Below, piece after piece: positions 14,224-47,159 of a stretch of 49,858 nt of DNA; the stretch's first letter is position 1, and the number at the start of each line of letters is the position of its first letter. The position numbers were made by a program, and so were the translations under genes. The notes under the pieces are model-generated. The model searched no databases and was not told the origin of the DNA. It worked only from the letters and a program-made list of their open reading frames with translations. This DNA comes from Gemmatimonadota bacterium (GTDB lineage Bacteria > Gemmatimonadota > Gemmatimonadetes > Gemmatimonadales > Gemmatimonadaceae), in assembly GCA_028287345.1 (NCBI GenBank), contig JAQBPV010000529.1:1-49858 (forward strand). The letters are read 5' to 3'.

Positions 14224-14297
14224 CGGGACGTAGCGCAGCCCGGTAGCGCACCTGAATGGGGTTCAGGGGGTCGCGGGTTCAAATCCCGCCGTCCCGA
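14224..14297 (+). tRNA. tRNA-Pro (anticodon GGG)
   Basis: The acceptor stem CGGGACG (14224-14230) pairs perfectly with CGTCCCG (14290-14296), followed by discriminator A at 14297. The anticodon stem CCTGA/TCAGG encloses the loop ATGGGGT, giving anticodon GGG, which reads proline CCC/CCU codons. The T-arm GCGGGTTCAAATCCCGC is canonical. CCA is not encoded. The 3' 42 bases are duplicated at the far end of the mobile element, so this gene is the integration target; the gene stays intact because the element carries the missing 3' part. Confidence 0.95.
14256..14297 (+). repeat. attL: 42-bp direct repeat within tRNA-Pro
   Basis: This stretch, from the anticodon loop to the discriminator base, is identical to 47118-47159. 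The bases on both sides differ (A against G on the left, T against C on the right), so 42 bp is the full identity block. It marks the crossover region of a tyrosine-recombinase element. Confidence 0.93.
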
Positions 14298-14311
14298 TGT
14301 GGTATAAGACT

Positions 14312-14346
14312 AAGGCCGACAGCCGGTTACACGGTTGTCGGCCTTT
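14312..14346 (+). terminator. Element-borne terminator behind tRNA-Pro
   Basis: Ten perfect pairs (14312-14321 with 14336-14345), extended inward by a G-T and three G-C pairs, form a hairpin with a six-base loop, followed by TTT. It lies 14 bases after the tRNA, inside the element, and probably replaces the host terminator that integration displaced to 47172. Confidence 0.75.
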
Positions 14347-14361
14347 GCCGCTTTCGAGTCC

Positions 14362-14380
14362 GTGCTACGTTGGTGCTACG
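14362..14380 (+). other. Putative integrase arm-type site, left
   Basis: Two direct copies of TGCTACG lie 11 bases apart (14363-14369 and 14374-14380). The same paired motif in the same orientation stands near the right end (46991-47008). Paired short repeats near both ends of an integrated element are the pattern of integrase arm sites. Confidence 0.55.
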
Positions 14381-14412
14381 CGGCTCGCCGAATACTCGGC
14401 GTTGGAGACGGA

Positions 14413-14769
14413 ATGACGCGCCATCGGCGAATTGACCGCCAACTCGCGCGAAAAGCCAAGATTATTGTCCGTCGGGGCATCGAAGTTATGTCGGATGCAC
14501 GCGTCAAGTGTTTCTGGACGCAGGTTGCCTCCGTCGGATCACGGTCAACGTTCTACGCTCTTGGTGATTTGCGACGCCCTCACGTTCCGAGCGTCTCGCA
14601 GCTGCGCGAGATGGCGGACCTTAGTGAGGCCGCCGCATTCCGGATGCTAACGAGCGTAAGAGAGCTACGCGACGTTGCAACGGAGATGGCGGAGGCAGAG
14701 CGTAACGTAACCGCATCAGCTGCAGGCAGGAGAAAGGCGGGGGTAAGTGTAGACGCTTCGGCCACATGA
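14413..14769 (+). CDS. Hypothetical protein, possible DNA-binding helix-turn-helix
   Basis: The ATG at 14413 follows GGAGA at a good distance; the frame opens earlier at 14335 but that part overlaps the terminator and arm sites. The 118-residue protein has a basic N-terminus (TRHRRIDRQLARKAKII) and a helical part, PSVSQLREMADLSEAAAFRM, that could be a helix-turn-helix, then a helical tail. No family is recognised. As the first gene inside attL it could be a late or excision-related gene. Confidence 0.45.
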   Translation: MTRHRRIDRQLARKAKIIVRRGIEVMSDARVKCFWTQVASVGSRSTFYALGDLRRPHVPSVSQLREMADLSEAAAFRMLTSVRELRDVATEMAEAERNVTASAAGRRKAGVSVDASAT

Positions 14770-14957
14770 CGCGCTGGTCGAGAGGAGCGATCATAAGAAC
14801 GGATCATCACAGTTCTTCTGAAACGCTGAGCAACGTCGTGAAGACGTGGAGTTCGTTAGATGGGGCAGTTCACAAAGCATGACTCGACGCGAGCAATCGC
14901 GCGCTCGAGCGGGACGAAAGGGCGTGGTCCTCGTGGTGTTCACGCGCGGATCGGCTG

Positions 14958-16238: not shown

Positions 16239-17348
16239 ATGGGTTTCCTGAGCGGGCTTGGGAAGTACGTGGGACCTGGCCTCACCGCTGCGACCACAGT
16301 CGCGGGCGCCTACAACGACGCCACCGCAGCGGCGAAGCGCAATGAGCTTACCGCACAGCTTCGTGAGCGCGACACGAAGGAGCAGCTTCGTCAGCAGCAC
16401 GTGCGAGAAGCCATCTTCGCGCGGAAGGAGGGATACGTACCCACCGCTGAGCGAGGGCTCGACGAGCGAACCGTGCTCGGCGGCGAGGCGATCAATGGAA
16501 TAGTGGGCGCCGCCACCGCAGGCATGCCGGGATCAGGCATCATGTCGGTCGGACATCCCGATGCGAAAGAGCCTCGTTACGGTGAGGACGTCGGCGGTTA
16601 CAGCTACGACAAGGAGTCATCGCCGGCGCAGAAGGATGCTGCAGAAGTCGGCGGCGTCCGAGCGCTCATCGCGCAACGCATCGCCCAATCAAAGCGCGCT
16701 CAGGCGATGATCCCGTCGATCGCAATGCGCCAGAAGCTTATCGATGCGGGGAACGATCCCGATGACGTCGACGCAGCGATCGCGACCGGTGATCCCGCCG
16801 CTGTGCGCGGGCTCCTCCGTCCAGCACGTGATCCGATTGCGGACTTCAGAGCGAAGCACGACTACTCCGTCACACACCCGTTGCCATCACGGACGTCGAG
16901 CGCCAACAGCGAGACGCCCCAGCATCGGGATGCGCGTCAGAACGCGACTGCAGTCCGTCAACAGCTCAGTGCCACGCACGAGGCGTTGTCGTCGGCGCAG
17001 CGCACCGTCCCGAAACAGCCCGCGTTCTTCTCCTCGCCCGCGGATTCCTCTGATTTCGTACATCGGCGCACCTCAGCACAGAAGCACGTCGCCGAGTTGC
17101 GCCAGCGCTCGGACTCGCTCACCAGCGTGCTCGATCGCGAGACCGCACGCATGCAGGGCGGAAGCGTGCCAGACAGCGCACCCGCCGGCGAGAACGCAGA
17201 CGCGCATGCGCTGAACGCTGAACTGGAGTCGAACCAGCAACGGTACGAGCGATTGCTGCGCGCAGGTGCAGATACTAGCGAAGCCAAAGAAGCGCTCGCG
17301 AAGACCAATCAATTGACGCGGCAGAAGTACGCTCGGCGCACTCAGTGA
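16239..17348 (+). CDS. Virion-internal-like coiled protein
   Basis: The start is preceded by AAGGAG. The 369-residue protein begins with a Gly/Ala-rich segment (LGKYVGPGLTAATTVAGAY) followed by charged helices rich in Ala, Gln, Arg and Glu, with predicted coiled coils near residues 40-65 and 225-350. A small hydrophobic N-terminus before long helical tails is the habit of internal or ejection proteins of short-tailed phages, placed just before the large internal protein. The call is by context and composition only. The next gene starts at its stop codon. Confidence 0.55.
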   Translation: MGFLSGLGKYVGPGLTAATTVAGAYNDATAAAKRNELTAQLRERDTKEQLRQQHVREAIFARKEGYVPTAERGLDERTVLGGEAINGIVGAATAGMPGSGIMSVGHPDAKEPRYGEDVGGYSYDKESSPAQKDAAEVGGVRALIAQRIAQSKRAQAMIPSIAMRQKLIDAGNDPDDVDAAIATGDPAAVRGLLRPARDPIADFRAKHDYSVTHPLPSRTSSANSETPQHRDARQNATAVRQQLSATHEALSSAQRTVPKQPAFFSSPADSSDFVHRRTSAQKHVAELRQRSDSLTSVLDRETARMQGGSVPDSAPAGENADAHALNAELESNQQRYERLLRAGADTSEAKEALAKTNQLTRQKYARRTQ

Positions 17349-20300
17349 TGTCGGAAGAACTGGCCCTCGAAGAGACTGAGCAGCAGCAAGGCGACGATCC
17401 GCTCGCAGTGCTTGAGCGACGGCATAGGCAGCAGAGTCGTCGCGTCGATGCTTCGGCGTCTGGTACGCCAGATCCGCTGAGCATTCTCGAACGCAAGCTC
17501 TCAAGGTCCAGCACGATCGATCTCGCTGACCCTGCGACACCGAATGAGATCACTGCGGCCGCGAGGCCAATCCATCTCGCGCCCGCCGTCGTCATGGCTC
17601 AGCGGCCAGAGATACCGCGCAGTGTACGAGCTATGGGAACCGGGCCGGAGGAGCGAGCGCCTGACGCTATCTCACTGCATACGCCGCTCGGCGTCCCTCG
17701 CGCGGTTCAGACGATGGGCACCGGACAGGAAGACATCGGACAAGCGCGCGGGGCGCCGGCAACGGACAAGCCAGCGGTGAAGCGTGCGGCCTACATGAAG
17801 AGCGGGCATCCGGTGATTGACACGAGCACGCCGGACGCCGCTGGTCACGTGCCAACGCACCGTCTTGATCAACCGACCGGCCGCGAGCCGAACGAGTCGT
17901 TCGATGACTACGAGGCACGCGTGCTCGCAAAGCGCTCGTGGTCGCCCGACACGGCGTCACACAACGATCTCGCGAGCCTTCATCCGCAGGTTGCGGATAG
18001 CGTGGAGTCTCTTCTGACGCACGCAAATCAGGATGGCGTCAGGCTGCGCGTCGGCGAGACGAAGCGCTCACAGGAACGGCAGGAGATGCTGTTCCAAAGA
18101 GGGCGCGGAGGGAATCCCGGCGACGTCGTGACGTGGACGCTCACAAGCGATCATTCACCGGGTCGCGCAATCGATTTCACCGGAGCACCGGCGGCGCTCG
18201 CGTGGCTGCAGCAGAACGCACCGACTCACGGCTTCTCGGTAATGGGCGCGATGGATCCCGGGCATGTCTCAATTCCAACCCCGGCGTCGATCGAGCGAAC
18301 ACCCTCACTGGAACCGAGAAATATTCCAACTGTGCGGGGTGACGTCACAGTGGTCGCACCGAACGCTCGGCGTGCGTACCGTCCTGGCGTCGCAGAGCGT
18401 GCGGGAAAGCAGGTTGTCGAGCTCGCGGGGGAGGCGATTGCGCATCCGGGTCAGACCGCCGCGCATCTCATCACCGCGCCCTTCAAGTCGGCCGCAGATG
18501 CACTGCTGACACCGGAGGTTGGTGACCGTCGGCCGAATCCCAATCTCTCAAAGGGTGGGAACGCGCAGCACCTGAGTCAGGAGATGATCGACCAACCCTA
18601 TGACGCTGCGCACGGGGCACAGCCAAAGGGTGGACGCACCATTGCAGGCCTTCAGACGCTCGCGAACGTTGCCTTCCCAGGCATCGAGAGCGCCGTCGCC
18701 GACCGCGCGATATCGGCCGGCGCGTCGAAGCTCGGCGGCAAGTTGACCGGGATGGCTGTCGCAGGGGCGCCAGCAGGCGCGGCCTACTCGCCGGACGATC
18801 CGATTGCGGGAGCGCTCGCAGGCAGCGTTGTCGCGTCAGTGCTCGGCGCGGCTCACGAGGGCGCGGGCAAGCTTGCGCCGGTAGTGCGCGACGCTGCTGC
18901 AGCTGTACGGGACGCCTCGACGGCCGCACGTAGCGCAGCTGAGCGCACTCGATCCGCGGTGGCGAAGCGTCCTGTTGATTCACGCTTAGCGCGCGACAGC
19001 GAGCACCGTCTTGCCGATGCGCCACCGACGCTGGTCGATGTCGAACAGCAGCTCGCATCGCTGAAGGAACAGGCGCCGACAGACGCGCAGCCCGAAGGTG
19101 AGCTCACGAGCCGCATCAACATGCTCGAGGCGCAACGTCGGAAGCTCAAGGGTGAGCCCGAACCCGAGGTTTCGACAGCGGGCGAGACGCGCGCGAAGGC
19201 CGCGCAGCGCACGACGCCGGAGCCCGAGCCCGCGCCAGTGTCCGAGCCCGTCGCAGCGGAGTCGGCACCAACGCAGGCCGAAGCGGTTCCCGAATACCAC
19301 TTTAGGGATATCCTCGACCGTTCTCCTGAAGAGCTTCAGCACATTGCTGAAGTAGAAAAGGCGCGCGATGCCGAGATCGAGACCGATCTCTTTGGTGACG
19401 AAGGCGCGAAGCGATACAAGCGCCTCGCGGCGAGGGAGAACAGCAGCACGGCTACCGACGAACAGATCACAGCCGCACGCATAGAGCTCGATCAGATGGA
19501 GGCAACGCTCACCGAAGCGCAGCGTCGTCGACTGTTTGGCTTCGGGCAGAAGGGTCTGAGCGCCGAGGAACTCGGACACGCCGCTGAAGCCGCGTCGCTC
19601 TACCGCCCCGAGAAGGTCGAACATCTTAGCGATGCCACGCTGCTTAGCACCGTCGGCCGAGAACTCACGACCGGAAAGCCGCACGCCGACATCGTCAGCG
19701 CTCTTCACCTGCGAGGCGCAGTAAATGAACTGCAGCGGCGCACCGGCAGCACGCTTGAAGAAATCGTCCGGCGTGGAATGGAGGAACGGCATCGCCGGGG
19801 CGAACTGGCGAGCGCCGCGCAGGCTGGCGAGTTGTTCCGGTCCCGTATGGGCGAGCTTCAGAAGGCCGGACTCTTTACCGAGGTTCCGGCGATAGCTGAT
19901 TCACCAAAGCTCATCAGCCCGCCCGTCGAGACTGTGACGATGCCATCCGCTGGTGTCCAGATCAAGCGGATGCCTGTCGCAGACATCATCGCCGATCCAC
20001 AGCGGTTCCAGTACAAGCACAACGCCGACGCGGAGTCCGGAGCGGGCGCGGAACTCAAGGGACTGTCGAAGTTCGACGAGCAGCTAGCAGGCGTCATCTC
20101 CGTCTGGCGCGATCCAGCGACGGGTATTGTGCATCCAGTGAATGGTCACAACCGGCTCGCCCTAGCGCAACGCACCGGCCACCCATCGATCAACGTACAG
20201 GAACTGCCCGCCAAGACCGCCAGCGAAGCAAGGGCAATGGGCGCGTTGGCAAACATTGCCGAGGGTCGAGGCACGCCGCTCGACGCCGCACAGTTCTTCC

Positions 20301-23300
20301 GTGACTCGGGGCTCGGCATCGACGATCTGCGCGACCGAGTGTCTTTCAAGGGCTCGACGGCCAAGCAAGGACTTGGCCTCTCAAAGCTCGCCCCTGACCT
20401 CTTCGCGAAGGTTGCGCGTGGCGACATTGGCGAGGGCGCCGGCGCCGCCATCGGTGAGATGCTGTCGGGACATGAGCAGCAACGGGCGGCGGTGGACGCG
20501 ATCGAGCAATCAAGCAAGCGCCTCTCGGACGCTGAAGTGCGCGAGGTGGCGCGACAGGTACGCGATGCGGGGAGCGAGCAGGTCACGCAAGACAACCTGT
20601 TCGGTCAGGAAGCCATCGCAGTACCCCTCTACGTGGAACGCGCGCAACTCGCGAGTCTCGTGAAGAGGCGGCTGGCGAGCGATCGTCGGCTGTTCGGCTT
20701 CGTTGCTCGCGAGGGTCGCGCTGAGGAGTTGGCGCGAGGTGGAAACGCCATCGACGTCGAAGCGTCGAGGCGCATCGCCGGCGAATCGGGTCAGCTCGAG
20801 GAAGTATTCAACCAGCTCTACACGCGCTCCGGTCCGATCGCGGATGCGCTCACTGAGGCCGCACGGAAGGTTGCCAATGGCGAGAATCCCAGAGCACTCA
20901 TCGACGACCTCTATCCCTCCATCCGGGACGCCGTTCAGGAAGTTGTCGGCAGAGGAGAAGGATCGAGTAATCACGCACCTGGAAGAACAGGTCGCGAGTG
21001 GGAATCTGTACCCGACTCCGAAACAGCGGTCGGAGACGAGCGTCTAAGCGATTCGATCGACCCGTCGCAGGATGCGCTCTTCGACCATGATCCGCTCGCC
21101 AAGATGGAGCGCGACCTGTTCGGAGAGCAGGTTCCCGATGCCGCGCCCCAAGGCGCACTGTTCAGCGGGCGCGAAGGCACTTCAGGCGCTCGATCGCTCC
21201 GCGAGACGGAGGCCGCGGCGCGCGCTGAACTGCAGCAGTTGCGCGCGGAACAGAAGCTCGAGACCGATGCGAATTCCGCGCAGGTTCGGACGCGTCGCAT
21301 CGTCGAGCTGGAGAAACTCGTCAATCGCGGCGAGAAGATCAGTGCCGAGGAACTACAGGCCCGTGCTTCGGCTGAACCGGTGCGTGATCCCCATTCCGGC
21401 CCCGATCAAGCAGCCCTCTTCTCTCCGATTACTGATCTCGGTTCCGTCATCGGCGCAAAGCTCCGAAGTGTCATCGGACAGCCGCCCATTGCCCAGATAG
21501 CCCGGGTTGAATCACTGCGCGCAATCAGCCGAGCGCTCGCCGATGGTGTCGGCGTCCCGCTGCGCGAAGGCCGGTTCAAGGCGAAGCAGCGCCGCGCGCT
21601 CGGCGCGTTCTTCCCGCATGCCGAAGTCGCACGCGTCATTCGCATGGACAGGATCGACACAGCCGCACACGAAGTGGCGCACTACATCAGCAAGGAGTAC
21701 CTGCGGAATCCGACGATGAAGGGCGCGGCCGGGCGCGGGGCACCTCAATTGTCGATGGTGGCGAAGCGTGAGCTCGTGAAGATGGGCCGAGACCTGTACG
21801 GCGCGCGAAAGCCCACCGGTGGCTATGGCGAAGAGGGCATCGCGCAGTGGGGACGATTTTATGTTACCGAGCCGAATCGGCTCGCGACGGATGCGCCGGT
21901 ATTCACCCAATGGGTTGAGCAGCACGTGCTGAGCAAGGAACCTGCGTTACGGCAGACGCTTGATGCGGCCCGGCAGGCGTTCCACGATCACACGACGGCG
22001 CCCCCGACTGCTCGCGTTGATGCGATGCTGTCGGTGAATGACCAATCCGCGCTTGCCTCTGGACTCCGTCACGTCAGTTCGCCGGAAGCCAGGTCGTGGC
22101 TCGCACGGAAGCTCATCACCTACGGCCTCGATGACCTCGGCGAGTTCAAGCGAGCCGTCGCCGAGCTTGGCGGTGCACGGTCGCCGACGCAGGACGCGTA
22201 TGTGCTCGCCCGCCTGACGCGCGGTGCCGCCGGTATGGCCGAGGAGATGCTCGACCGCGGCATTGTCGATCCGCGGACCAACCAACGCGTCGCGCCGGCG
22301 GTGCACGACGTGCTCGCATCGCTCAAGCCCGAGGAGCTGGCCCCATTCCGTCGCTACCTCGTCGCGGAGCGCGCCATCGAACTGGCGGACCGTGGCGTCG
22401 ACGCTGGAATCGCGATGACCGATGCACTCGAGATGCGGCGGATGTACGAGCCTCAGTTTCGCGCGCGCGCTGAACAGCTCTGGCAGGTCTCCAACGCTCT
22501 GATCGACTATCGCGTGCACAAAGGACTGTTGACGGACGCTGAGGGCGCGGCGATCAAAGCCGCGAACCAGCGTCGGGTTGGGTTCTACCGTGTCTTCGAG
22601 GACGAGGAAGGCGTCGGGGGAAAGGGCAACGGCAAGGGATTCGGCCGTAACTCCAGCGGTATCCAACGCGCTGTCGGCTCATCGCGAGAAATCATCGATC
22701 CGCTGGAGTCCGTCATCACGGACGTCTACAAAACCGTCGCGCAGTCACACGCACACGAAGCGGCGCTCGCGCTGTACAAGCACGCGCTCCGCACTGAAGG
22801 CGGCGGGCGGATCGCGGAGCTCGTGCCGGCGCCACAGGCCCCTGTCGAGATCCCGGTCGAACGCGTCAAACAGCAGCTCGAGGATCTTGGGTTCATCGTC
22901 CCGAATGGTGGGCTGACGCCATTGCTGGGCATGCTCAAGAGCTTCCAGGACGCGACCACGGCCGGAGCGCGCGAGACCAAAGACCTCGTCGTGCCTGTGA
23001 TTCTCAACGGCGAGCGGAAGTGGTTGGCGATCAAGGACGCGCAACTGTACGACGCCCTCGCGGGGCTGAATCAGCAGCAACTTCCGATGTGGCTGCGCAT
23101 TGCCGGTGCGCCGACGCGCCTTCTTCGCGCTGGTGCAACGCTGACGGGCGAATTCATCGCGCGCAATCCGGTCCGCGACGCGTTCACGGCGGCAGTCTAC
23201 TCGCAGGGTCCGAACCGGCCGCCTGGCTTCCTCGCGGCCGAAGGTTTGTTCCACCTCGTGAAGCGCGACGATCTGTTTCAGCGTTGGCGTCTCGCCGGCG

Positions 23301-24721
23301 GCGATAATGCGGCGCAGCTCGGCCTAGATCGCGCCGCGACACAGAAAAACCTCGCGGCGTTGACGCGCTCGACGCACGGGAAGATTGCTGACGTGGTCGT
23401 GCATCCGATCGATGCGCTACGGATGATCTCCGGCATCATGGAGAATGCGACGCGCATCGGGGAGTTCTCCGCGGTCGCGCGAAAGGCAGGCAAAGCGGGA
23501 ATGAGCCGCGCCGACACAGACGCCGCAGCCGGTTTCGCGTCGCGCGACGTGACTGTGGACTTCGCGAAGGCAGGGCAGGTGGGCCGGGCCGCGAATCAGT
23601 TGATGAGCTTCTTCAACGCGACGGTGCAGGGCAACCTGAAGCTCATAACGGAGCTCCGCGCCCGGCCCGCTGTTGTACTGCCGCGTATCGCCGCGATGAT
23701 CACCATCCCGTCCATCGCACTCTACCTGTTGCAGCGGGATGACCCAGCCTATCAGGAAGTGCCCCAGTGGCAGAAGGACGTCGCGTGGATCGTCATTCAG
23801 CGTGACGAGCACGGTACGCTCGAGCATATCTGGCGCATTCCGAAGCCGCCGGAACTCGGCATCCTCTTCGGATCCACGTTCGAACGCGCGCTGCAGTTCA
23901 TCGACCATCATGACCCGCGCGCCCTCGACGGTCTGACGTCCTCGCTGGGGAGCACGCTCAATCCGTTTCACATGCCGGAAGTCATCCGGCCAGCCGTGGA
24001 GTGGTGGGCGAACAAGTCCTTCTTCCGAGATCGCCCGATCGTTCCGAGCGGGATGGAAAAGCTACCCGCCGCGGAGCAGAGCACTCGCTACACGGGCGAG
24101 GCTGCACGGGTGGTCGGCCGACTCACGAACACGAGCCCAGCAAAGATCGAGAACACCGTCAGTACGGCGGCTGGCGGACTTGGTGTCTATGCCATGCAGG
24201 GTGCCGACGCAGTGGTCCGGCTGGGACGGAAGGTGACAGGAGGAGCCCCGATTGCCGGCGCCGAAGCACACAGTGGAGATGCGACGACGCGTATGCCGGT
24301 GGTGCGTGGGTTCGCGGTCCGCCAGCCCGGTGGCGATGCGGAGAGCGTCGCGCGCACCATCAAGGATTTCCACGAGGCCGAGGGCCACAGACTCGCGTGG
24401 CAGCGGAAACTGGCCGCTGGAGATGCCACTGGCGCGGCCGAATACCTCGCTGCGCACCGGCCAGAGATACTGAGCGTCGCGACTCACGAGGAAAATGCAG
24501 GTGATCCGGGTCGGCTCCGCGCGGTGTACGATCAGATCACACTACTGCAGAAGCAAAGCGCGGAGGTCTCCAATCAGGTGCGTGACCCTGTCCGCGCGAG
24601 CGTGATTCAGCGTTCGCTCGCTGACCGTCAGGTCAAGATCGCCCGCCAATACCGCCTCGCAGCGCAGATCCGACAGAAAGCGCCGACGGCCTCAGTTCGC
24701 GCCGCCATTCCTCGTCGATAG
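17345..24721 (+). CDS. Giant polyvalent protein: M15-like peptidase, ParB-like, zincin-like and LPD38-like segments
   Basis: This 2,458-residue protein starts at GTG 17345 or, more likely, ATG 17348 overlapping the upstream stop. In order: an N-terminal tail with repeated DPL-x-x-LER and MGTG motifs; an M15/VanY-like peptidase (about 210-310; zinc ligands probably His270 in SDHSPG, Asp277 in AIDF, His307 in DPGHVS); charged helices; a ParB-like segment (about 865-1000, with VNGHNRLALAQ); DLFG linkers; a zincin-like HEVAH at 1442-1446; and near 1940-2140 a segment like LPD38 (FAKAGQVGRAANQLMSFFNA). This matches the 'large polyvalent proteins' of phages and conjugative elements, thought to be packed with the DNA and injected. 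The peptidase could open the cell wall and the ParB-like part could protect or process DNA. Confidence 0.8.
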   Translation: MMSEELALEETEQQQGDDPLAVLERRHRQQSRRVDASASGTPDPLSILERKLSRSSTIDLADPATPNEITAAARPIHLAPAVVMAQRPEIPRSVRAMGTGPEERAPDAISLHTPLGVPRAVQTMGTGQEDIGQARGAPATDKPAVKRAAYMKSGHPVIDTSTPDAAGHVPTHRLDQPTGREPNESFDDYEARVLAKRSWSPDTASHNDLASLHPQVADSVESLLTHANQDGVRLRVGETKRSQERQEMLFQRGRGGNPGDVVTWTLTSDHSPGRAIDFTGAPAALAWLQQNAPTHGFSVMGAMDPGHVSIPTPASIERTPSLEPRNIPTVRGDVTVVAPNARRAYRPGVAERAGKQVVELAGEAIAHPGQTAAHLITAPFKSAADALLTPEVGDRRPNPNLSKGGNAQHLSQEMIDQPYDAAHGAQPKGGRTIAGLQTLANVAFPGIESAVADRAISAGASKLGGKLTGMAVAGAPAGAAYSPDDPIAGALAGSVVASVLGAAHEGAGKLAPVVRDAAAAVRDASTAARSAAERTRSAVAKRPVDSRLARDSEHRLADAPPTLVDVEQQLASLKEQAPTDAQPEGELTSRINMLEAQRRKLKGEPEPEVSTAGETRAKAAQRTTPEPEPAPVSEPVAAESAPTQAEAVPEYHFRDILDRSPEELQHIAEVEKARDAEIETDLFGDEGAKRYKRLAARENSSTATDEQITAARIELDQMEATLTEAQRRRLFGFGQKGLSAEELGHAAEAASLYRPEKVEHLSDATLLSTVGRELTTGKPHADIVSALHLRGAVNELQRRTGSTLEEIVRRGMEERHRRGELASAAQAGELFRSRMGELQKAGLFTEVPAIADSPKLISPPVETVTMPSAGVQIKRMPVADIIADPQRFQYKHNADAESGAGAELKGLSKFDEQLAGVISVWRDPATGIVHPVNGHNRLALAQRTGHPSINVQELPAKTASEARAMGALANIAEGRGTPLDAAQFFRDSGLGIDDLRDRVSFKGSTAKQGLGLSKLAPDLFAKVARGDIGEGAGAAIGEMLSGHEQQRAAVDAIEQSSKRLSDAEVREVARQVRDAGSEQVTQDNLFGQEAIAVPLYVERAQLASLVKRRLASDRRLFGFVAREGRAEELARGGNAIDVEASRRIAGESGQLEEVFNQLYTRSGPIADALTEAARKVANGENPRALIDDLYPSIRDAVQEVVGRGEGSSNHAPGRTGREWESVPDSETAVGDERLSDSIDPSQDALFDHDPLAKMERDLFGEQVPDAAPQGALFSGREGTSGARSLRETEAAARAELQQLRAEQKLETDANSAQVRTRRIVELEKLVNRGEKISAEELQARASAEPVRDPHSGPDQAALFSPITDLGSVIGAKLRSVIGQPPIAQIARVESLRAISRALADGVGVPLREGRFKAKQRRALGAFFPHAEVARVIRMDRIDTAAHEVAHYISKEYLRNPTMKGAAGRGAPQLSMVAKRELVKMGRDLYGARKPTGGYGEEGIAQWGRFYVTEPNRLATDAPVFTQWVEQHVLSKEPALRQTLDAARQAFHDHTTAPPTARVDAMLSVNDQSALASGLRHVSSPEARSWLARKLITYGLDDLGEFKRAVAELGGARSPTQDAYVLARLTRGAAGMAEEMLDRGIVDPRTNQRVAPAVHDVLASLKPEELAPFRRYLVAERAIELADRGVDAGIAMTDALEMRRMYEPQFRARAEQLWQVSNALIDYRVHKGLLTDAEGAAIKAANQRRVGFYRVFEDEEGVGGKGNGKGFGRNSSGIQRAVGSSREIIDPLESVITDVYKTVAQSHAHEAALALYKHALRTEGGGRIAELVPAPQAPVEIPVERVKQQLEDLGFIVPNGGLTPLLGMLKSFQDATTAGARETKDLVVPVILNGERKWLAIKDAQLYDALAGLNQQQLPMWLRIAGAPTRLLRAGATLTGEFIARNPVRDAFTAAVYSQGPNRPPGFLAAEGLFHLVKRDDLFQRWRLAGGDNAAQLGLDRAATQKNLAALTRSTHGKIADVVVHPIDALRMISGIMENATRIGEFSAVARKAGKAGMSRADTDAAAGFASRDVTVDFAKAGQVGRAANQLMSFFNATVQGNLKLITELRARPAVVLPRIAAMITIPSIALYLLQRDDPAYQEVPQWQKDVAWIVIQRDEHGTLEHIWRIPKPPELGILFGSTFERALQFIDHHDPRALDGLTSSLGSTLNPFHMPEVIRPAVEWWANKSFFRDRPIVPSGMEKLPAAEQSTRYTGEAARVVGRLTNTSPAKIENTVSTAAGGLGVYAMQGADAVVRLGRKVTGGAPIAGAEAHSGDATTRMPVVRGFAVRQPGGDAESVARTIKDFHEAEGHRLAWQRKLAAGDATGAAEYLAAHRPEILSVATHEENAGDPGRLRAVYDQITLLQKQSAEVSNQVRDPVRASVIQRSLADRQVKIARQYRLAAQIRQKAPTASVRAAIPRR

Positions 24722-27890: not shown

Positions 27891-28208
27891 ACGTTCTCCA
27901 GAGGAGAGGGGCCAATCGACATTTGCGTCATCGCACCTTCCTAGCACCTTTCCTCTAAATATGCAAGAGTGGTTTACCTGGCTACGTTGGAGTTATCGCA
28001 TCCTTTCAAGCCCCGATGACGCAGCGACGCATCGTCCCGACCCACAAGATGCTAAGCCAGCCGCCACGCAAGCATCCATCGTCGCCCCGTTCCGCTTCGC
28101 GATGTCGTACTGGGCGGCGAACTCGGTGGCGACCTTTGCGTCGATGTCGTTCATTTGCGCCAAAACCACTGGCTTGCCGCGGCGCACCGATGGCGCGAAG
28201 CTTCCCCG

Positions 28209-31082: not shown

Positions 31083-31103
31083 ACCCACGTTTTTTGCTAC
31101 TCT
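31075..31103 (+). promoter_or_regulatory. Rightward promoter of the repressor gene
   Basis: The -35 TTGCAG (31075-31080) and -10 TACTCT (31098-31103) are 17 bases apart. Transcription should begin near 31110, the A of the repressor start codon, so the message looks leaderless. O3 overlaps the -35, which would allow autoregulation. Confidence 0.65.
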
Positions 31104-31109
31104 CGTGGC

Positions 31110-31367: not shown

Positions 31368-31368
31368 C

Positions 31369-39204: not shown

Positions 39205-40182
39205 ATGACCCAGGCGCAATTCATCCCACCGATGCTGCTGCTCAAGACCGAACAGTTGCCTGGCGAAGCGCACTGGTTCTACCAGCTCAAGCTGGATGGG
39301 TATCGGGCGATCGCTTTCAAGACGGCTGGCAAGGTCCATCTCCGTTCACGGAACGACAAGGACTTCGGCTCACGATATCCTCTCGTTGTGAACGCGCTCG
39401 CGAAAATGCCGGATGAGACGGTAGTGGATGGGGAGGTCGTGGCGTTCGACGCTGAAGGTCGCCCATCGTTCAACGCGCTCCAGAACTACGGTTCGGCGGC
39501 AGCTCCCGTCGTGTACTTCATCTTTGACGTCATGGTGCTTCGGGGTGTGGACCTTCGCAGGTTGCCGCTGGAGGAGCGAGTGAAGCGGTTGGAAAAGACG
39601 ATCCTTCCCAAACTCTCGGAACCGGTGCGCTACTCCGGGCCGCTCAATGCTTCTCTTCGTGTGTTGATCGACTCAGTGAAGGCGCAAGGCCTCGAAGGCC
39701 TTGTCGCGAAGCGCCGCGATAGCGTATACGAATCCGGACTGCGGTCCGGTGCCTGGCAGAAGATGCGCGTCAACCGTGGTCCGGAATTCGTGATTGGCGG
39801 GTACACCCTTGGCACGCGCACGTTCGACGCCCTGATCTTCGGGTTCTACAAAGGCAACGATCTCATTTATGTCGCCCGAACCCGCAACGGGTTCACCCCA
39901 GCTTCTCGGCTCGCTGTGTTCAAGAAGTTCGCGGGCCTCGAGACTGCGGAATGCCCCTTCGCAAACCTTCCTGAACCACGCGGTGGCCGTTGGGGTCAGG
40001 GGCTCACGGCAGAGAAGATGAAGGAATGCGTTTGGCTTAAGCCAAGGCTCGTCGCCCAGATCGAGTTTCTGGAGTGGACCGCCGGCAATCATCTTCGGCA
40101 CACCAAATTCGTCGGGCTTCGCCACGACAAGAATCCGAGAGACGTGAAGCGAGAGTTAGAGGCCGCGCCCTGTAGCCACTGA
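39205..40182 (+). CDS. ATP-dependent DNA ligase, LigD ligase-domain type
   Basis: The 325-residue protein has the adenylation motif KLDGYR (Lys29), then VVDGEVVAFD (motif III region), GLEGLVAKR (motif IV) and WQKMRVNRG (motif V), followed by a C-terminal OB-fold (IYVARTRNGFTPASR). It matches the ligase domain of LigD, without polymerase or nuclease domains and without Ku nearby. It would seal nicks or breaks with ATP. In this element it could serve circularisation of the injected or excised DNA. Confidence 0.88.
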   Translation: MTQAQFIPPMLLLKTEQLPGEAHWFYQLKLDGYRAIAFKTAGKVHLRSRNDKDFGSRYPLVVNALAKMPDETVVDGEVVAFDAEGRPSFNALQNYGSAAAPVVYFIFDVMVLRGVDLRRLPLEERVKRLEKTILPKLSEPVRYSGPLNASLRVLIDSVKAQGLEGLVAKRRDSVYESGLRSGAWQKMRVNRGPEFVIGGYTLGTRTFDALIFGFYKGNDLIYVARTRNGFTPASRLAVFKKFAGLETAECPFANLPEPRGGRWGQGLTAEKMKECVWLKPRLVAQIEFLEWTAGNHLRHTKFVGLRHDKNPRDVKRELEAAPCSH

Positions 40183-40355: not shown

Positions 40356-40748
40356 ATGGACCCGGCGCTACTCGCATGGGGCAAATGGTTCTGTATCAGC
40401 TATCTCGGCACAGCGGAGACCGGGTTTCCTGCGAAGGATGCTTTGGACGCTGTACTAGGAGTTGAAGGGAAGCGAGTGCGCGCACGTTTGCTCGCGCTGG
40501 CGCAAAGAATGGCAGACCATGGGCATCTCACCCGCGAACATGGGCACTGGCTTGAGTCTCCATACAAAGAGATTTACGAGTTCAAGCCTTATGCCTTCAG
40601 AGTGTTCGCGTTTCTTGACGGGAAACACTTACGGGTAGTGAGCGTAGCAAAGAAGGCAAAGCCGCGCCGACAGGAAAGAGACTATGATCACGCCAACAAC
40701 CTGCGCACCCAGTGGTTGGCGGCTAAGAAACCTAAGGAGAACCGATGA
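40356..40748 (+). CDS. HigB/RelE-like toxin (Gp49-like)
   Basis: The 130-residue protein ends with YEFKPYAFRVFAFLDGKHLRVVSV and KKAKPRRQERDYDHA, the core of Gp49/HigB-like toxins of the RelE superfamily, which cut mRNA on the ribosome. The N-terminal part (LLALAQRMADHGHLTREHGHW) also fits. It is followed by an Xre antitoxin with an ATGA overlap: toxin first, as in HigBA. The start is ATG 40356 (TTG 40353 possible). Confidence 0.8.
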   Translation: MDPALLAWGKWFCISYLGTAETGFPAKDALDAVLGVEGKRVRARLLALAQRMADHGHLTREHGHWLESPYKEIYEFKPYAFRVFAFLDGKHLRVVSVAKKAKPRRQERDYDHANNLRTQWLAAKKPKENR

Positions 40749-41194
40749 GTGCGGAGAAGCCTGACTACGAGTTGAATGCCCTAGAGGCGCATCTCATTGC
40801 TGACGACGAGGTACGGTATTTCGCGCAGGATGCCGCCATCCTTGCTGTGACCGAAGCCATCAATGATGCTATGGAGGCGCTCGGTGTAACTCGAGCGGAG
40901 CTCGCCCGGCGCTTGAAGCGCACCCCCGGATTTATTTCGCAGGTGCTGTCTGGCAGCCGCAACATGACTATTAAGACCTTCGCGGACATCGCGCTGGCTC
41001 TTGGGCTCCAGCTTCGAAACGTGGAACTGAGTCCAGTCGGAGAGATGCGAGTACCCTACGATTCCATGGATCAATGGCTGGAGCAGTGGAAGGAGCAAAA
41101 CGTGGCAACTGCAAGTGTGTATGCCGTCGCGGGTTCCAGTGTCCCGGCAAGCGGGTGGACTAAACTCGCGACGTTTCACATGCATGTGGCTTAG
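40745..41194 (+). CDS. HigA-like Xre antitoxin with C-terminal extension
   Basis: The 149-residue protein has an Xre helix-turn-helix, VTRAELARRLKRTPGFISQV (about residues 48-67), and then a roughly 50-residue extension with Trp, Tyr and Phe residues (MDQWLEQWKEQ, SGWTKLATFHMHVA). In toxin-antitoxin-chaperone systems such an extension is the chaperone-addiction region (ChAD), which makes the antitoxin unstable unless a SecB-like chaperone binds. The chaperone gene follows after two bases, which supports this. Confidence 0.8.
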   Translation: MSAEKPDYELNALEAHLIADDEVRYFAQDAAILAVTEAINDAMEALGVTRAELARRLKRTPGFISQVLSGSRNMTIKTFADIALALGLQLRNVELSPVGEMRVPYDSMDQWLEQWKEQNVATASVYAVAGSSVPASGWTKLATFHMHVA

Positions 41195-42781: not shown

Positions 42782-42943
42782 ATGTCAAAGTACTACCGAT
42801 CCGTCGCGCCCGCCACTGGCCGTAAAACTGATAGACGGCCGTTCTGTCGCTCGAGCGAGATCACTCCCGCCACTGGCGCCTCGCTCGATGCGCAGGCCTG
42901 CCTCGGACGTCTGCGCTTCGTGCGCAGGGGCGGTGCGCGATGA
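42782..42943 (+). CDS. Very small protein before the HNH-AP2 gene
   Basis: The ATG at 42782 gives 53 residues (MSKYYRSVAPATGRKTDRRP onward), ending in a basic segment; the stop overlaps the next ATG (ATGA). A longer frame from 42677 is possible. No family recognised. Confidence 0.4.
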   Translation: MSKYYRSVAPATGRKTDRRPFCRSSEITPATGASLDAQACLGRLRFVRRGGAR

Positions 42944-43527
42944 AGGAATGTGCGAAAGCCCCCAGACCGCTGCTGCCCAACCCCGTTATCGAAATCGGTG
43001 ACGGGAGAGGGTCCGGCGTTGAGCTCCATGCGCGTGACGGCCAAGCGATCGTCAGCGTGTTCGTGTCGCCCAGCGACTATGGCGAATTCGCGGGCCGAAT
43101 ACTGTACGTTGCAGTGAATCGTTACGTGGCCTTCTCAACGTGGGATAGCTCAAAGAAGCGGTCAGCGCGCCACTTCATCCACCGCGAGATCCTGCCAGAT
43201 ATCGATGGGCTACAAGTCGACCACGCGAATCGCATTCGGCTCGACAATCGTCGCGGCAATTTGCGGCGCGCAACGCCAAGCCTGAACACGGCTAATCGCG
43301 AGCGGCCCCACCACGCAAAGCCGCCATCGTCGCGCTTTCGCGGTGTGACAGCTCGCCAGGGTAAGTGGCAAGCCGGCTTGAAGGTTCATCGGCGATTTCG
43401 CTTCCTCGGCTTGTTCAAGAACGAAGAAGATGCGGCACGCGCCTACGACCGCGCGGCGGTTCAGGCCTTCGGCGCTTTCGCTGTGGTGAACTACGCCGAC
43501 GGCGAGCAGGCGGCGCCGGCGCAATGA
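42940..43527 (+). CDS. HNH endonuclease with AP2 DNA-binding domain
   Basis: The 195-residue protein has an HNH_3-type nuclease (VDHANRIRLDNRRGNLRRAT, about residues 88-107) and a C-terminal AP2/ERF domain (RFRGVTARQGKWQAGLKV and FKNEEDAARAYDRAAVQ). This fusion is common in phage homing endonucleases and mobile-element nucleases. It is coupled to both neighbours (ATGA), so it is part of the replication run; a homing-endonuclease role or a packaging role in nicking are both possible. Confidence 0.88.
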   Translation: MKECAKAPRPLLPNPVIEIGDGRGSGVELHARDGQAIVSVFVSPSDYGEFAGRILYVAVNRYVAFSTWDSSKKRSARHFIHREILPDIDGLQVDHANRIRLDNRRGNLRRATPSLNTANRERPHHAKPPSSRFRGVTARQGKWQAGLKVHRRFRFLGLFKNEEDAARAYDRAAVQAFGAFAVVNYADGEQAAPAQ

Positions 43528-44375
43528 CGCGACGCTACGGTTACCTCAAATTGTCGCGGAAGTTGTTCGATCCCGAGCGAGAGGATTCGTTCTGGCTGGA
43601 GAAGCGTTCGTTCTCGCGCTTTGAGGCGTGGATCGATCTCCTGCAGCTCGCACCGTGGACCGATTACTCAGTCACGTCCGGCGCAACGATCGAAGTTCCG
43701 CGGGGCTGTTTCATCGCATCCCTGCGACTTCTAACGCGCCGATGGGCGTGGCCGAAGACACGAGTCGAGCGCTTCCTCAGCCTTCTCTGTGCGCGGGACA
43801 TGCTGCGACGCGAAAGCGGGACACCAATCGGGACACTCTATCGTGTTGTGAAATATGAGACTTACCAGTCCCTGCGGGACAGCGAGCGGGACGAAAGTGG
43901 GACACCAATCGGGACAAAAATAAAGCAGTCAAGCAGGGAAGCACTTCAAGAAGCTACTACTACGCCGGAAATCGTTGGCTCGATCATGCCCGAGCAAAGC
44001 GCGTATCAAATCGGGCTCGTGTCTGCTGCCAATGACGCATCAGATCGGCGATTCCCCGGTGCCGTTCCAATTCGGTGGGATCACACAGGCACGGTCGACA
44101 CGGCTATCGCACTTCAATCAGCCGGAGTGCCCTTGGAGTTCGCCCAGCGCATCGTCGCGCAGAAGACCGAGGCGATGCCCTCGGCGCCGTACTCCATGAA
44201 GTACTTCCGCGACGCAATCATCGATGCGTGGCGTGCGCAATCCGCACCAGAACCGCCGCATTCGCCCTCCGTCGCTACGGGCACGGACGGGAAGACGCGA
44301 GCTCGCCGCAAGGATGCAGGTACTCCCGGAATTGAACCTTATGCCAACGCGTTTCGCGTGGGGATCGACCGATGA
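43524..44375 (+). CDS. Replication-initiator-like protein (phage replisome organiser type)
   Basis: The ATG at 43524 overlaps the previous stop. The 283-residue protein starts with YGYLKLSRKLFD and has a winged-helix-like N-terminal region (about 15-110, RFEAWIDLLQLAPW, GCFIASLRLLTRRWAWPKTR) and a long variable middle with two near-identical SGTPIGT stretches. This layout is that of phage replication initiator or O-like proteins, which bind the origin and recruit the helicase loader. The DnaC-like loader gene follows with an ATGA overlap, as in those phages. The phage origin often lies inside such a gene. Confidence 0.75.
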   Translation: MTRRYGYLKLSRKLFDPEREDSFWLEKRSFSRFEAWIDLLQLAPWTDYSVTSGATIEVPRGCFIASLRLLTRRWAWPKTRVERFLSLLCARDMLRRESGTPIGTLYRVVKYETYQSLRDSERDESGTPIGTKIKQSSREALQEATTTPEIVGSIMPEQSAYQIGLVSAANDASDRRFPGAVPIRWDHTGTVDTAIALQSAGVPLEFAQRIVAQKTEAMPSAPYSMKYFRDAIIDAWRAQSAPEPPHSPSVATGTDGKTRARRKDAGTPGIEPYANAFRVGIDR

Positions 44376-45208
44376 CAACACAGATTCAGCCATTGAGCGT
44401 GGGTTTCGAAACGCGCCAGGACACGTGCCCGAAGTGCAACGGCTCGTCGACGGCTACGCGAATCATCACGTGTGAGAAGGACCTGAGTAAAGCGTGGAAC
44501 CGGTATCTATGCGAAGCGTGTCAAGATCGCGCGGCAGCCGAGCGACGGTCATCTGCGACAGAGGCTTCGCCTGGGACTGTGACGACCGCTCGCATGAAGC
44601 AGCTCGGGGTGCCACCAAAGTATGCCGCCGTCTCACTGGAAAACTTCGACGTAAACGGAGCGGCACCCGGTCAGCGGTCGCGGCTCGATACGGTGATGAA
44701 GCGCGCCATCGATTTCCTGGCCGACTGGCCCGCCTCCCCCGTGCTCTCCTTGTTCGTCGGAGATCCGGGGACTGGAAAGGGGCACATCGCATGGAGTATC
44801 GCGCGTGCGGTGGTTGAATCGAAGCAGGGCAGCGCCCGCGTGTGTGTGCTCTCCGACGTGATTCGCGATCTGCGTGAAGCGTGGTCGTCGAACGAGGAGG
44901 GTGGACTGTCAGAAGCAGCGCGATTAAGCCGCTATCGCTCTGTGGATCTGCTCGTAATAGACGAAGTGAGCAACCACGCATTCTACGGCCAGCCTCGGCA
45001 GCATCTCTACGACCTCGTCGCGTGGCGCGAAGTCCACAACATGCCAACGATCATCACCACCAACGACTCGGGAGAGGACATCGCCACAACCCTCGGCCCT
45101 GCTCTCTCGAGCCGCGTACTTGGGGGCGGACCGATCTGGTATTTCGGCGAGGGGGACTATCGAATCAAGCGCGCGGAGAAGATCAGGATTGGAGGGCACA
45201 CCGCATGA
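44372..45208 (+). CDS. DnaC/IstB-like AAA+ helicase loader
   Basis: The 278-residue protein has a Cys-rich N-terminus (CPKC near residue 19 and CEAC near 48, a zinc-ribbon-like pair), Walker A GDPGTGKG at 130-137 and Walker B LLVIDE. The Thr/Ser usually after the Walker Lys is Gly here, which is odd but the rest of the fold is intact. DnaC-type proteins load the replicative helicase for an initiator, here the gene just upstream. Confidence 0.85.
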   Translation: MTTQIQPLSVGFETRQDTCPKCNGSSTATRIITCEKDLSKAWNRYLCEACQDRAAAERRSSATEASPGTVTTARMKQLGVPPKYAAVSLENFDVNGAAPGQRSRLDTVMKRAIDFLADWPASPVLSLFVGDPGTGKGHIAWSIARAVVESKQGSARVCVLSDVIRDLREAWSSNEEGGLSEAARLSRYRSVDLLVIDEVSNHAFYGQPRQHLYDLVAWREVHNMPTIITTNDSGEDIATTLGPALSSRVLGGGPIWYFGEGDYRIKRAEKIRIGGHTA

Positions 45209-45612
45209 TCACGCTTATGGAACTCCGAGAGAAGTGGGAGGCGCGCCGCACTGAGGCGAAGCGGTGCGGCTACCTCGCAGCAGTCGATGCTGTATGCAGT
45301 GACGTGCTCACCGATCTGATCGACCTCGCCCAGACGAGTGATTCCACTACGCTCAATCTGACCGAGGCTGCGGCGACGACTGGTTTCCACCCTGGCAGCA
45401 TCGCCCGAATGATCAAGACAGGAAAGGCGAAAAACTACGGAACATCAAGTCGCCCGCGTGTGCGGCCGAGTGAGCTCCCACGCAAGGCACGATGCGTCTC
45501 AGATGCTTCTGGCGATGCGCGTCCTTCGCTGGTATCATCGGTCAGTGATGATGCGCTCGCGCTCGACGCGGTTGCATCGCGTATGGGTCGCTCCACTGGC
45601 ATGAGAGGATGA
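45205..45612 (+). CDS. Helix-turn-helix protein next to the integrase
   Basis: The ATG at 45205 overlaps the loader stop and the end overlaps the integrase start (both ATGA). The 135-residue protein has a helical N-terminus and a helix-turn-helix, LNLTEAAATTGFHPGSIARM, then a basic-polar tail. Position and motif fit a DNA-binding directionality or excision factor for the integrase, though this is inference. Confidence 0.55.
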   Translation: MITLMELREKWEARRTEAKRCGYLAAVDAVCSDVLTDLIDLAQTSDSTTLNLTEAAATTGFHPGSIARMIKTGKAKNYGTSSRPRVRPSELPRKARCVSDASGDARPSLVSSVSDDALALDAVASRMGRSTGMRG

Positions 45613-46877
45613 CGCGCATGGGCCGCCCGAAGAAGTGCTGGTCGGTGAAGGTGGGCGCGCGCGGTCATAGCGTGTTCGCGTTCGAGCGCGCACCGGGCGG
45701 TCCACTGTGGCTTCGCTGGTGGGTGCCGAAGTCCCTGAACGCTGATGGCCAATGGCAGTGGCGCCCACTCAAGCACACGGACCGCGTCGTCGCCGAGCAG
45801 ACCGCTCGCACTGTCGCGGCACAGCTGATGAGTGTCGCCGTCAGCGAGAGCTCCGGAAGGACGACGCTGGCCGAGATCCTCGTGGCGTATCGCGCTGACG
45901 TGTGCGATCACCTAAAAGGGCAGGGGCCGAAGGAAGCAAAGCGTCGCATCGCAATCTGGACGGCCGTCCTCGGCGCGCAGCGCGACGTCGCGACGATCGA
46001 CTTTCCGACGATCGAGCGTTTCATCCGAGATCGGCGCGCCGGCACAATCGTCGTCGTGCCGTACAAGCTCAAGAAGTCGCCGACAGATGGCGCGATCGGC
46101 GCCGATGTGGTGTTCCTCGAGAGCGCGCTCAATCACGCGACGCGTGTTGTTCGCCCGAGCGGAGCCCGTCTCCTGCACACGAATCCGATCCGCGGATTCC
46201 AGATCCCACGGAACAAGAACCCGAAGCGGCCGGTCGCGAGCTATGACCGCTTCCTCAAGGTTGCCGAGTTCGCGGATGCCGTTGACCTGCAGCAGCTCTT
46301 CGGCGCGTTCATGGCCCTGGTCGAGGGCCTGGGATGGCGTGTGTCCGCTATCTGCGCGCTGCGCAACGCTGACGTCGATTTGAAGGCAACACCGTCAACG
46401 CCACACGGCCGCATTCAGAAGCGCCCCGAGATCGACAAAGAAGGTGTCGGTGGCTGGCTGCCAATGAGCGAGTCCGTCCGCGCGGCGGTCGAGCGTGCGC
46501 GCTCACGGAACGCCACTATTCTCGCCGAGTGGCCGCTGTTCCCGGCGCCGATGGCGCGAATTGCGCTCGAGCAGCAGGCACGCACGATCGAGGTACCGAA
46601 GTGCTGGAGTCGATACCACGCCCGGGCCCTTCTGGCACGTGCCGAGCTGAAGGCCGGGCTGGCTCCGCTCGAGGGCTCTGACTTTCATAGCTACCGTCGC
46701 ACCTGGGCGACGGAACGGAAACACCTGCCGGCGCAGGATGTGGCGGAGGCGGGCGGGTGGCGCGACCTGCGAACCATGGAGCGAGCGTACATGCAGACGG
46801 ACGCGTCGACGATCCTCGCGGTCGTCACCGAGCCGCGGAAGCTGCGGGACGCGAAGGCAGACGAGGCGGCGAGCTAG
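45609..46877 (+). CDS. Tyrosine site-specific integrase
   Basis: The 422-residue protein has all catalytic residues: Arg244 (GLGWRVSAICALRNADVDL), His360 and Arg363 (HSYRR), Trp384 (GGW) and the nucleophile Tyr394 (RTMERAYMQTD). The N-terminal part has the arm- and core-binding regions. It lies next to attR, 240 bases away, and will integrate the element into tRNA-Pro. The reading direction is toward attR. The start may be ATG 45609 or 45618. Confidence 0.93.
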   Translation: MTRMGRPKKCWSVKVGARGHSVFAFERAPGGPLWLRWWVPKSLNADGQWQWRPLKHTDRVVAEQTARTVAAQLMSVAVSESSGRTTLAEILVAYRADVCDHLKGQGPKEAKRRIAIWTAVLGAQRDVATIDFPTIERFIRDRRAGTIVVVPYKLKKSPTDGAIGADVVFLESALNHATRVVRPSGARLLHTNPIRGFQIPRNKNPKRPVASYDRFLKVAEFADAVDLQQLFGAFMALVEGLGWRVSAICALRNADVDLKATPSTPHGRIQKRPEIDKEGVGGWLPMSESVRAAVERARSRNATILAEWPLFPAPMARIALEQQARTIEVPKCWSRYHARALLARAELKAGLAPLEGSDFHSYRRTWATERKHLPAQDVAEAGGWRDLRTMERAYMQTDASTILAVVTEPRKLRDAKADEAAS

Positions 46878-46990
46878 TCGTGTGTGTTCTTGGGTACGGC
46901 GCCAGCCACCGCAACAACATATCAGTGAGCGTTGATGCGTTCTCTCTTCATTTGACATTGAGGGAGCTGTCTTCAGCTGCACCCTGTGCC

Positions 46991-47008
46991 TGCTACGTTA
47001 TCGCTACG
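46991..47008 (+). other. Putative integrase arm-type site, right
   Basis: Two direct TGCTACG-like copies lie 11 bases apart (46991-46997; 47002-47008 as CGCTACG), in the same orientation and spacing as near attL. The 240 bases between integrase and attR show no gene; the longer open frames crossing attR are shadows. Confidence 0.55.
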
Positions 47009-47117
47009 TTCGGCCTCCACAAAGGATTGAGTTCGGGGCCGACCACCCCAACACTGGCCCTTGGCGTTCAGAGGGGAGTACTACATCTTGTTGAGGAGGG
47101 ATGTTGTCAGTCCCTAG

Positions 47118-47159
47118 ATGGGGTTCAGGGGGTCGCGGGTTCAAATCCCGCCGTCCCGA
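47118..47159 (+). repeat. attR: 42-bp copy of the tRNA-Pro 3' end
   Basis: Identical to 14256-14297 and in the same orientation. The 5' half of the tRNA is absent here, so this is not a second tRNA gene. It marks the right boundary of the element. Confidence 0.93.

Follow-up and report, generated by a model that had tools for sequence, protein, structure and literature searches.

The window analysed here is a 49,858-nucleotide stretch of a Gemmatimonadota contig (JAQBPV010000529.1, assembly GCA_028287345.1), and integrated within its tRNA-Pro gene is an element of 32.9 kb (32,862 bp from att site to att site). The element carries packaging and injection genes, and no shell genes were found in it, which confirms what an initial annotation of the window had noticed. 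The gene order of its kin makes a headless podovirus prophage the simplest account. The element is therefore probably, if not securely, a podovirus-type prophage without its head block.

The element and its late genes

The att-bounded element that the initial annotation placed at 14256 to 47159 in tRNA-Pro is real. ARAGORN recognizes the tRNA, and a direct repeat (14251-14297 and 47113-47159; 47 nt, 96% identity) contains a core of 42 nt that is identical in its two copies. An integrase lies between the repeats and is accompanied by a replication module, a combination that phage satellites in general share. The anatomy, att sites and profile identities were observed directly, as was the gene order of relatives. 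The ends and the late genes are:

14224..14297, + strand: tRNA-Pro (ggg), the integration target
14256..14297, + strand: attL core, 42 nt, the same as attR and equal to the 3' end of tRNA-Pro(ggg)
14298..14957, no strand: left junction, 660 bp, with one open reading frame (ORF) of 144 amino acids (aa) at 14335-14769 that has no phage matches
14958..16034, + strand: 358-aa probable alpha/beta-hydrolase (esterase), from three Pfam hydrolase matches below curated cut-offs (E 0.014-0.042)
16239..17348, + strand: 369-aa internal virion (ejection) protein-like ORF, 29% identical over 158 columns to an ORF of locus L197 (E 3e-6)
17345..24721, + strand: 2458-aa phage-type polyvalent (ejected) protein, VanY/endolysin-like at about 203-297, ParB-like at about 860-1180, LPD38 at 2133-2292
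24728..25273, + strand: putative small terminase (TerS), by position
25266..27059, + strand: large terminase (TerL), ATPase and nuclease residues retained, from phrog_2 (4.1e-22), motif alignment and tree
47118..47159, + strand: attR core, by repeat comparison

The initial annotation called the 2458-aa product a giant protein of an injected type, and this description fits. According to a passage in PMC5512222, LPD38 and DdrB-like ParB are phage-only domains of polyvalent proteins that are injected with DNA. LPD38 is matched by Pfam at 8.7e-35, and the ParB-like label is our own, from alignment with phage proteins, no ParB profile having matched by name. The VanY match is just below the Pfam cut-off (4.4e-5; 23.7 versus 25 bits). 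Three "lysis" endolysin families of PHROGs match residues 203-279, on the VanY-like stretch (best 1.4e-10). This indicates that a peptidoglycan-hydrolase domain is present, but not a separate lysis gene.

Giant proteins of podovirus records and viral contigs are 21-33% identical to the C-terminal half and 29-53% identical to the ParB-like stretch. The closest is that of L197 (43.6% over 1,636 columns), and the L197 counterpart of the 369-aa ORF stands directly ahead of it. Behind the L197 giant gene are transmembrane, holin-like and lysozyme-like ORFs, so named by look. Single-sequence searches of viral contigs with the giant protein, TerS and the ejection protein gave no relatives. Searches with domain alignments gave loci that encode a relative, of which the best 80 of 396 and the best 80 of 291 were taken; TerL lies within the flanks in 2 of these 160 as far as our TerL queries can tell, terminases of other types perhaps having escaped them. 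Among phage records, the 358-, 369-, 330- and 144-aa ORFs have no match.

The late genes are tightly packed. The 369-aa and giant genes overlap by 4 bp, 6 bp separate the giant gene from TerS, and TerS overlaps TerL by 8 bp. The initial annotation had spoken of a terminase pair, and for the large subunit the profile and the ATPase and nuclease motifs agree. TerL also matches a solved nuclease-domain chain listed as "Gene 2 protein" (5c10, E 0.003), which we take to be the Sf6 terminase. The small subunit is named from its place and the 8-bp overlap only. No TerS profile supports it (the best PHROG is an unnamed family at E 0.36), and hhalign against 11 TerS-position proteins of TerL kin gives a probability of 0.6%. 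As claimed, the gene after TerL (27363-27947) is on the opposite strand.

The search for shell genes

Forty-two ORFs were picked in the element, 30 of which were scanned against PHROGs and 20 against Pfam; the longest of the 12 outside the PHROG scan is 202 aa. No portal, capsid or tail-tube gene was found among the scanned ORFs, nor was a separate lysis gene. In addition, tblastn with 309 ORF products from 15 phage and prophage sources (E <=0.01) matched only the giant protein and TerL. In this scope the claim that 32.9 kb contain no portal, capsid or tail gene is borne out by the PHROG profile check that the initial annotation had proposed. Its claim of a missing lysis gene stands for a separate gene, with the qualification that an endolysin-like domain sits inside the giant protein. 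The set expected of an intact podovirus-type prophage (portal, capsid, tail tubes) was not found.

One "portal" match did appear. The family phrog_21 matches residues 869-1174 of the giant protein at 3e-59, along positions 1014-1323 of a 1,362-position model. The match was discounted because it falls on the ParB-like stretch common to giant podovirus proteins, and the giant protein was rejected as a portal.

Gene order in relatives

One clue to what is missing comes from G140:C31, a complete-looking podovirus contig from a bacterial genome of the same order (loci L305, L304, L296 and L297). Its ends overlap by 9.9 kb, so it is circular and about 50 kb. Its genes run from a TerL-like ORF through a 783-aa ORF in the portal position, ORFs in the scaffold and capsid positions and two in tail-tube positions to a 394-aa ORF, a 397-aa ejection-type ORF and a 1,909-aa giant protein. 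These labels come from size, order and look, with one weak virion match to PHROGs among five proteins. In GenBank, connector/portal, scaffold, capsid and tail tubes are annotated ahead of the giant protein in P-SCSP1c, MedDCM-OCT-S31-C1 and HTVC034P, and connector, capsid and stabilization protein in MW202898.

What the window contains corresponds to the last part of this order, namely the 358-aa probable esterase, the 369-aa ejection-type ORF and the giant protein. The 358-aa ORF occupies the place of the 394-aa ORF of G140, and the 1-bp overlap between the 397-aa and giant genes of G140 has its counterpart in the 4-bp overlap here. In the kin of this ejection cassette the head and tail genes come first, so the place of a missing head block would be to its left, between attL and 14,958.

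What if the break lies behind the terminase instead? The initial annotation had offered a loss of head and tail genes near 27.1 kb as the rival to its own reading, and had proposed to compare gene order there. In a TerL tree of 70 rows the window falls in a 37-row clade (support 100/100), with the Gemmatimonadota sequences G030, G070 and L091 near the clade base. A co-directional ORF of portal-like size is first or second behind TerL in 29 of the 30 clade rows with room for it, the exception being L007. The comparison covers 32 other rows, some near-identical, of which two have no downstream room, and three of the 29 ORFs are cut by a contig end. These ORFs were judged by size, and that of G030 was also tested by profile (portal, phrog_156, 6.8e-12). 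Synteny among the TerL kin thus makes a break at 27.1 kb possible as well, but the kin of the ejection cassette place the head genes upstream. There are two candidate break points, therefore, and the 660 bp between attL and 14,958 appear the most likely one.

How a head block might have been lost

The element could be what is left of a temperate prophage of podovirus type. Only the two ends would have survived: one half with the early, replication and integration genes, and the final five late-operon genes (esterase, ejection protein, giant polyvalent ejection protein, TerS and TerL). The block from portal through capsid to tail tube, and the separate lysis genes, would have been lost, most likely between attL and 14,958. 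Loss of a single block at the left would yield the present map with TerS-TerL last. The loss, its place and every function named here are what we infer. The remnant could still excise by its integrase and replicate through the DnaD- and DnaC-like proteins. If TerS and TerL work, its own DNA and the giant ejected protein might be loaded into a foreign podovirus head, but the element presumably cannot build a particle by itself. Such an origin is supported by the ejection cassette, which keeps the order of complete podoviruses and has its likeness in L197, and by the TerL tree, in which the neighbours of the window include G030, a head-bearing prophage.

Several observations do not fit so well. 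The tblastn search revealed no leftover piece of the head or tail genes, so that the loss event itself was not observed. A single deletion may also be too little to explain the map, because separate lysis genes are absent as well and the ORFs of L197 that look like lysis genes stand behind the giant gene. The late operon is undamaged and closely spaced, the catalytic residues of TerL are in place, and the att cores do not differ. Two other att-bounded elements of Gemmatimonadota combine TerL with a tape-measure protein, again without a shell, which simple decay would not predict. Finally, the TerL nearest by path, that of L091, is also in a locus in which no head gene was found.

A satellite with a helper?

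Perhaps the element does not need a head of its own. A helper-dependent satellite could have kept or gathered the choice of what is packaged (TerS-TerL) and the injected proteins, with heads, tails and lysis coming from a podovirus. This is a serious, if minority, possibility. It is kept because lysis genes are missing, the cassette is intact and tight and the att cores are identical, and because the same genome bin holds a circular-looking podovirus and the make-up of terminase plus injected protein recurs. The initial annotation had suggested a capsid-hijacking transfer element, and that idea is alive because satellite-like loci exist in Gemmatimonadota, although a headless prophage is favoured.

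The candidate helper is C538 (loci L106, L107 and L333), a contig of 47,923 bp with identical ends of 127 bp and an integrase-like stretch at 43.6-44.4 kb. It encodes a head-tail adaptor (phrog_332, 1e-166), a tail protein (phrog_376, 5e-175) and an internal virion protein (phrog_418, 5.5e-23), and it was the sole match when the window's own genome was searched with phrog_332. Judged by these genes, its virion type fits the podovirus-type ejection cassette, and an interaction between the two is hypothetical. The C538 TerL is only 22% identical to that of the window.

Other observations argue against a satellite. At 32.9 kb the element is large for one. No second copy or close relative of it was found. 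The window TerL belongs to a clade with head-bearing phages rather than to the two clades rich in capsid-less loci. No helper-interference gene and no pac or cos site was identified, with no dedicated tool applied.

Shell-less loci elsewhere in the phylum

With the TerL of L115 as query (E <=1e-8), at least 17 of 395 phylum genomes matched, a lower bound because at most three candidates were scored per genome. The window's own TerL was not among these matches. In six genomes (G110, G122, G179, G212, G353 and G366) an integrase lies close to TerL, and the stretch that was fetched showed no head gene. A head gene was seen in five, by profile in C538 of the window's own genome (G000), G030 and G324, and by ORF size and order only in G070 and G186. 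The remaining six are unsorted: G114 and G132 are at contig ends or broken, the G228 contig ends 580 bp past TerL, in G167 and G245 no integrase was noticed, no systematic search having been made, and G409 was left out of inspection. Three of the six shell-less loci, which come first below, have perfect repeats within tRNA genes as their boundaries.

L115 (G179:C185), 654-9523: 8.9-kb element, 42-bp perfect repeats in tRNA-Pro(tgg) 8,828 bp apart; TerL, primase-polymerase/helicase, integrase
L320 (G212:C10), 4412-12410: 8-kb element, 57-bp perfect repeats in tRNA-Leu 7,942 bp apart; no head gene found
L323 (G353:C29), 4855-18928: 14-kb element, 47-bp perfect repeats in tRNA-Cys 14,027 bp apart
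L091 (G366:C2), 5440-11687: integrase, replication gene, TerS-position ORF and TerL in a row, beside tRNA-Ser; no head gene found
L108 (G110), 5804-14548: the same row of four, at a transfer-messenger RNA (tmRNA) end; no head gene found
L109, 4204-13065: the same row of four, with no recognized RNA gene; no head gene found

The repeat of L108, at the tmRNA end, is only 11 bp, and that of L091 is 12 bp and outside the tRNA. In L091, L108, L109 and L115 (40 ORFs, with 25 of 65 matched families listed) the named families among those listed are integrase, primase/helicase and TerL, with TerS in L091. The L091 TerL is 44-45% identical to that of the window, and no portal was found in its locus.

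Two of the loci carry a tail tape-measure protein. In G212 a 1015-aa one (phrog_1533, 3.3e-10) starts 3 bp behind TerL. In phages, TerL and tape-measure genes are as a rule well apart. The G212 integrase reads in two frames, so this element may itself be decayed, which weakens it as a satellite precedent. In G353 the genes are integrase, TerL, a DnaB-like helicase and a tape-measure-like protein (phrog_1535, 2.9e-17), with HNH- and TIR-looking ORFs by eye; no head gene was seen, 249- and 293-aa ORFs being outside the profile scan. Three further tRNA-Cys 3' fragments follow the G353 element (19142, 19375 and 19607), as if from serial insertions. TerL kin of G212 amount to one weak locus in viral contigs and to G212 alone among the 12 genomes of its family, and those of G353 to none in viral contigs and to 4 of 121 family genomes, G353 included. 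Both elements are thus without a close copy. Separately, in L319 (G228:C43, 8142-11658), a tRNA-Pro, an integrase, a small Cys-containing ORF and TerL precede the contig end; this may be another such element, of very small size.

Do these loci share an origin? In a tree of 24 labelled TerL rows, the "capsid-less" state (8 rows, counting L319 despite the early end of its contig) takes six changes, and 138 of 500 shuffles are as low, so the state is not clustered. A 4-row clade (99/98) consists of three capsid-less rows and one unclear, with no head-bearing row, a point in favour of the satellite reading. In a 6-row clade (99/98) three rows are capsid-less and three unclear; a head-morphogenesis gene is present in one of the unclear rows, L321 (G324). 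The window TerL groups with head-bearing phages. This suggests that shell-less loci arose or persisted several times and that the window is a separate case near real phages.

A bolder idea places the element, as a large example, in a type of Gemmatimonadota satellite that is yet to be described, one with its own terminase and an injected protein but no shell, whose particle any fitting helper builds. We find this doubtful as it stands. It is similarly tentative that the injected protein (a podoviral ejection protein in the window, a tape-measure protein in G212 and G353) would let such a satellite both select the cargo and supply the delivery channel. Known satellites take heads, tails or both. 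If the idea were true, a packaging motor plus tail-passing proteins without a shell would be a third division of labour, with control of both packaging and cell entry. Six Gemmatimonadota loci besides the window, three of them with long perfect att repeats, make it testable.

Two other explanations are very improbable. An intact phage might have an unrecognized capsid and portal among ORFs without a family, which are many, 12 of the 42 having been outside the scan. One candidate is the 358-aa ORF, whose hydrolase matches are all below threshold and whose structure model is unusable (predicted local distance difference test, pLDDT, 30), so that remote capsid homology is possible for it. Against this, neither TerL nor the polyvalent protein is too unusual for recognition, and capsid, portal and tail tubes would all have been missed at once. 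Moreover, the late-operon stretch offers only the 144-, 358- and 369-aa ORFs, and the model of the last contains helices only (mean pLDDT 69, predicted template modelling score 0.29). Just as improbably, the headless look is an assembly artefact, sequence of a complete prophage having been misjoined or dropped in the contig of this metagenome-assembled genome (543 contigs; listed completeness 91.83%, contamination 5.57%). Against this, a single contig spans the two att copies, the tightly packed operon and genes to the left and right of the element, and tblastn found no head fragment at either suspected junction.

Other genes of the element

Beyond the terminase the element contains:

27363..27947, - strand: 194-aa secreted-looking cargo ORF (best PHROG E 0.13, no Pfam family)
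28836..29696, + strand: 286-aa ORF, no family found in the PHROG and Pfam scans
31094..31372, + strand: helix-turn-helix (HTH) repressor-like (phrog_8, 8.5e-8)
31369-31890: peptidase M41 (FtsH-like) domain protein, directly behind the HTH gene (Pfam 1.7e-9)
39205..40182, + strand: ATP-dependent DNA ligase (phrog_114, 1.1e-33; Pfam 8e-27)
40745..41194, + strand: HTH regulator (phrog_1373, 2.3e-11)
42940..43527, + strand: HNH endonuclease (phrog_99, 1.7e-26)
43527..44375, + strand: DnaD-like replication protein, in the frame of ORF 43365-44375 (phrog_2514, 7.5e-13)
44372..45208, + strand: DnaC-like helicase loader (phrog_50, 3.4e-39)
45205..45612, + strand: excisionase-like small protein, weak (phrog_66, 0.013)
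45609..46877, + strand: tyrosine integrase, pointing at attR (phrog_1, 1.2e-13)

These profiles bear out the integrase and replication pair of the initial annotation. Its repressor switch is seen as two HTH genes, at 31094 and 40745, whose matches are repressor-like or regulator families. A 76% direct repeat lies at 34672-34734 and 35177-35239 in coding-looking sequence; an in-frame stop, seen by eye in the second copy, hints at gene decay in the early region. The domain PF00562 (RNA polymerase beta C-terminal domain) was not found in the window's genome despite the listed completeness of 91.83%; it was matched in 14 of 14 control genomes.

Comparison with known systems

The closest likeness is with podoviruses such as HTVC034P, P-SCSP1c and G140:C31, in which ejection-position ORFs are likewise followed by a giant protein with a ParB-like or LPD38 stretch. 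Unlike the window, where shell genes were not found, these have connector/portal, capsid and tail genes ahead of the giant protein. Terminase placement differs too: TerL is ahead of the head block in HTVC034P and MedDCM-OCT-S31-C1 (in G140 by look) and on the opposite strand in P-SCSP1c, whereas in the window TerS-TerL come after the giant gene.

Among satellites, phage-inducible chromosomal islands (PICIs) and the Staphylococcus aureus pathogenicity islands (SaPIs) resemble the element in being att-bounded with integrase, replication and repressor-like genes. The initial suggestion of a PICI-like element is not borne out by its size. PICIs average about 9.5 kb in the account given by part of PMC10803314, against 32,862 bp here, and the size range of 7-20 kb used for satellites in a section of PMC13376191 is exceeded as well. 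Some SaPIs encode TerS, according to a passage in PMC10690885, but the element has TerL and a 7.4-kb ejection gene. PICI-type families for TerS redirection, capsid remodelling or interference were absent from the PHROG and Pfam scans, in which no satellite-specific models were used.

Capsid-forming PICIs (cf-PICIs) are integrated elements with their own small and large terminase, as is this one if its putative TerS is correct. According to the same passage of PMC10690885, cf-PICIs have genes of their own for capsid, protease, portal and connectors, so that tails are all they borrow. Those genes were not found in the scanned ORFs, ejection-type genes being present instead, and cf-PICI membership was rejected. 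Phage-inducible chromosomal minimalist islands (PICMIs) likewise have no capsid genes. Part of PMC10803314 describes them as encoding three core proteins, by which they excise and replicate, but neither terS nor any other recognizable packaging gene, whereas the element does have packaging genes. A narrow search of open-licence PMC articles found no literature joining phage satellites and Gemmatimonadota.

The remaining comparison is with defective prophages. These are presented in a section of PMC11389934 as proto-satellites, with structural genes missing and possible complementation by another prophage. The element is like them on both counts, no structural genes having been found in it and complementation by another prophage being possible. 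Even if it is merely a headless prophage, it would still show how a set of packaging and injection genes could arise, because satellites may emerge from defective prophages (as that section proposes).

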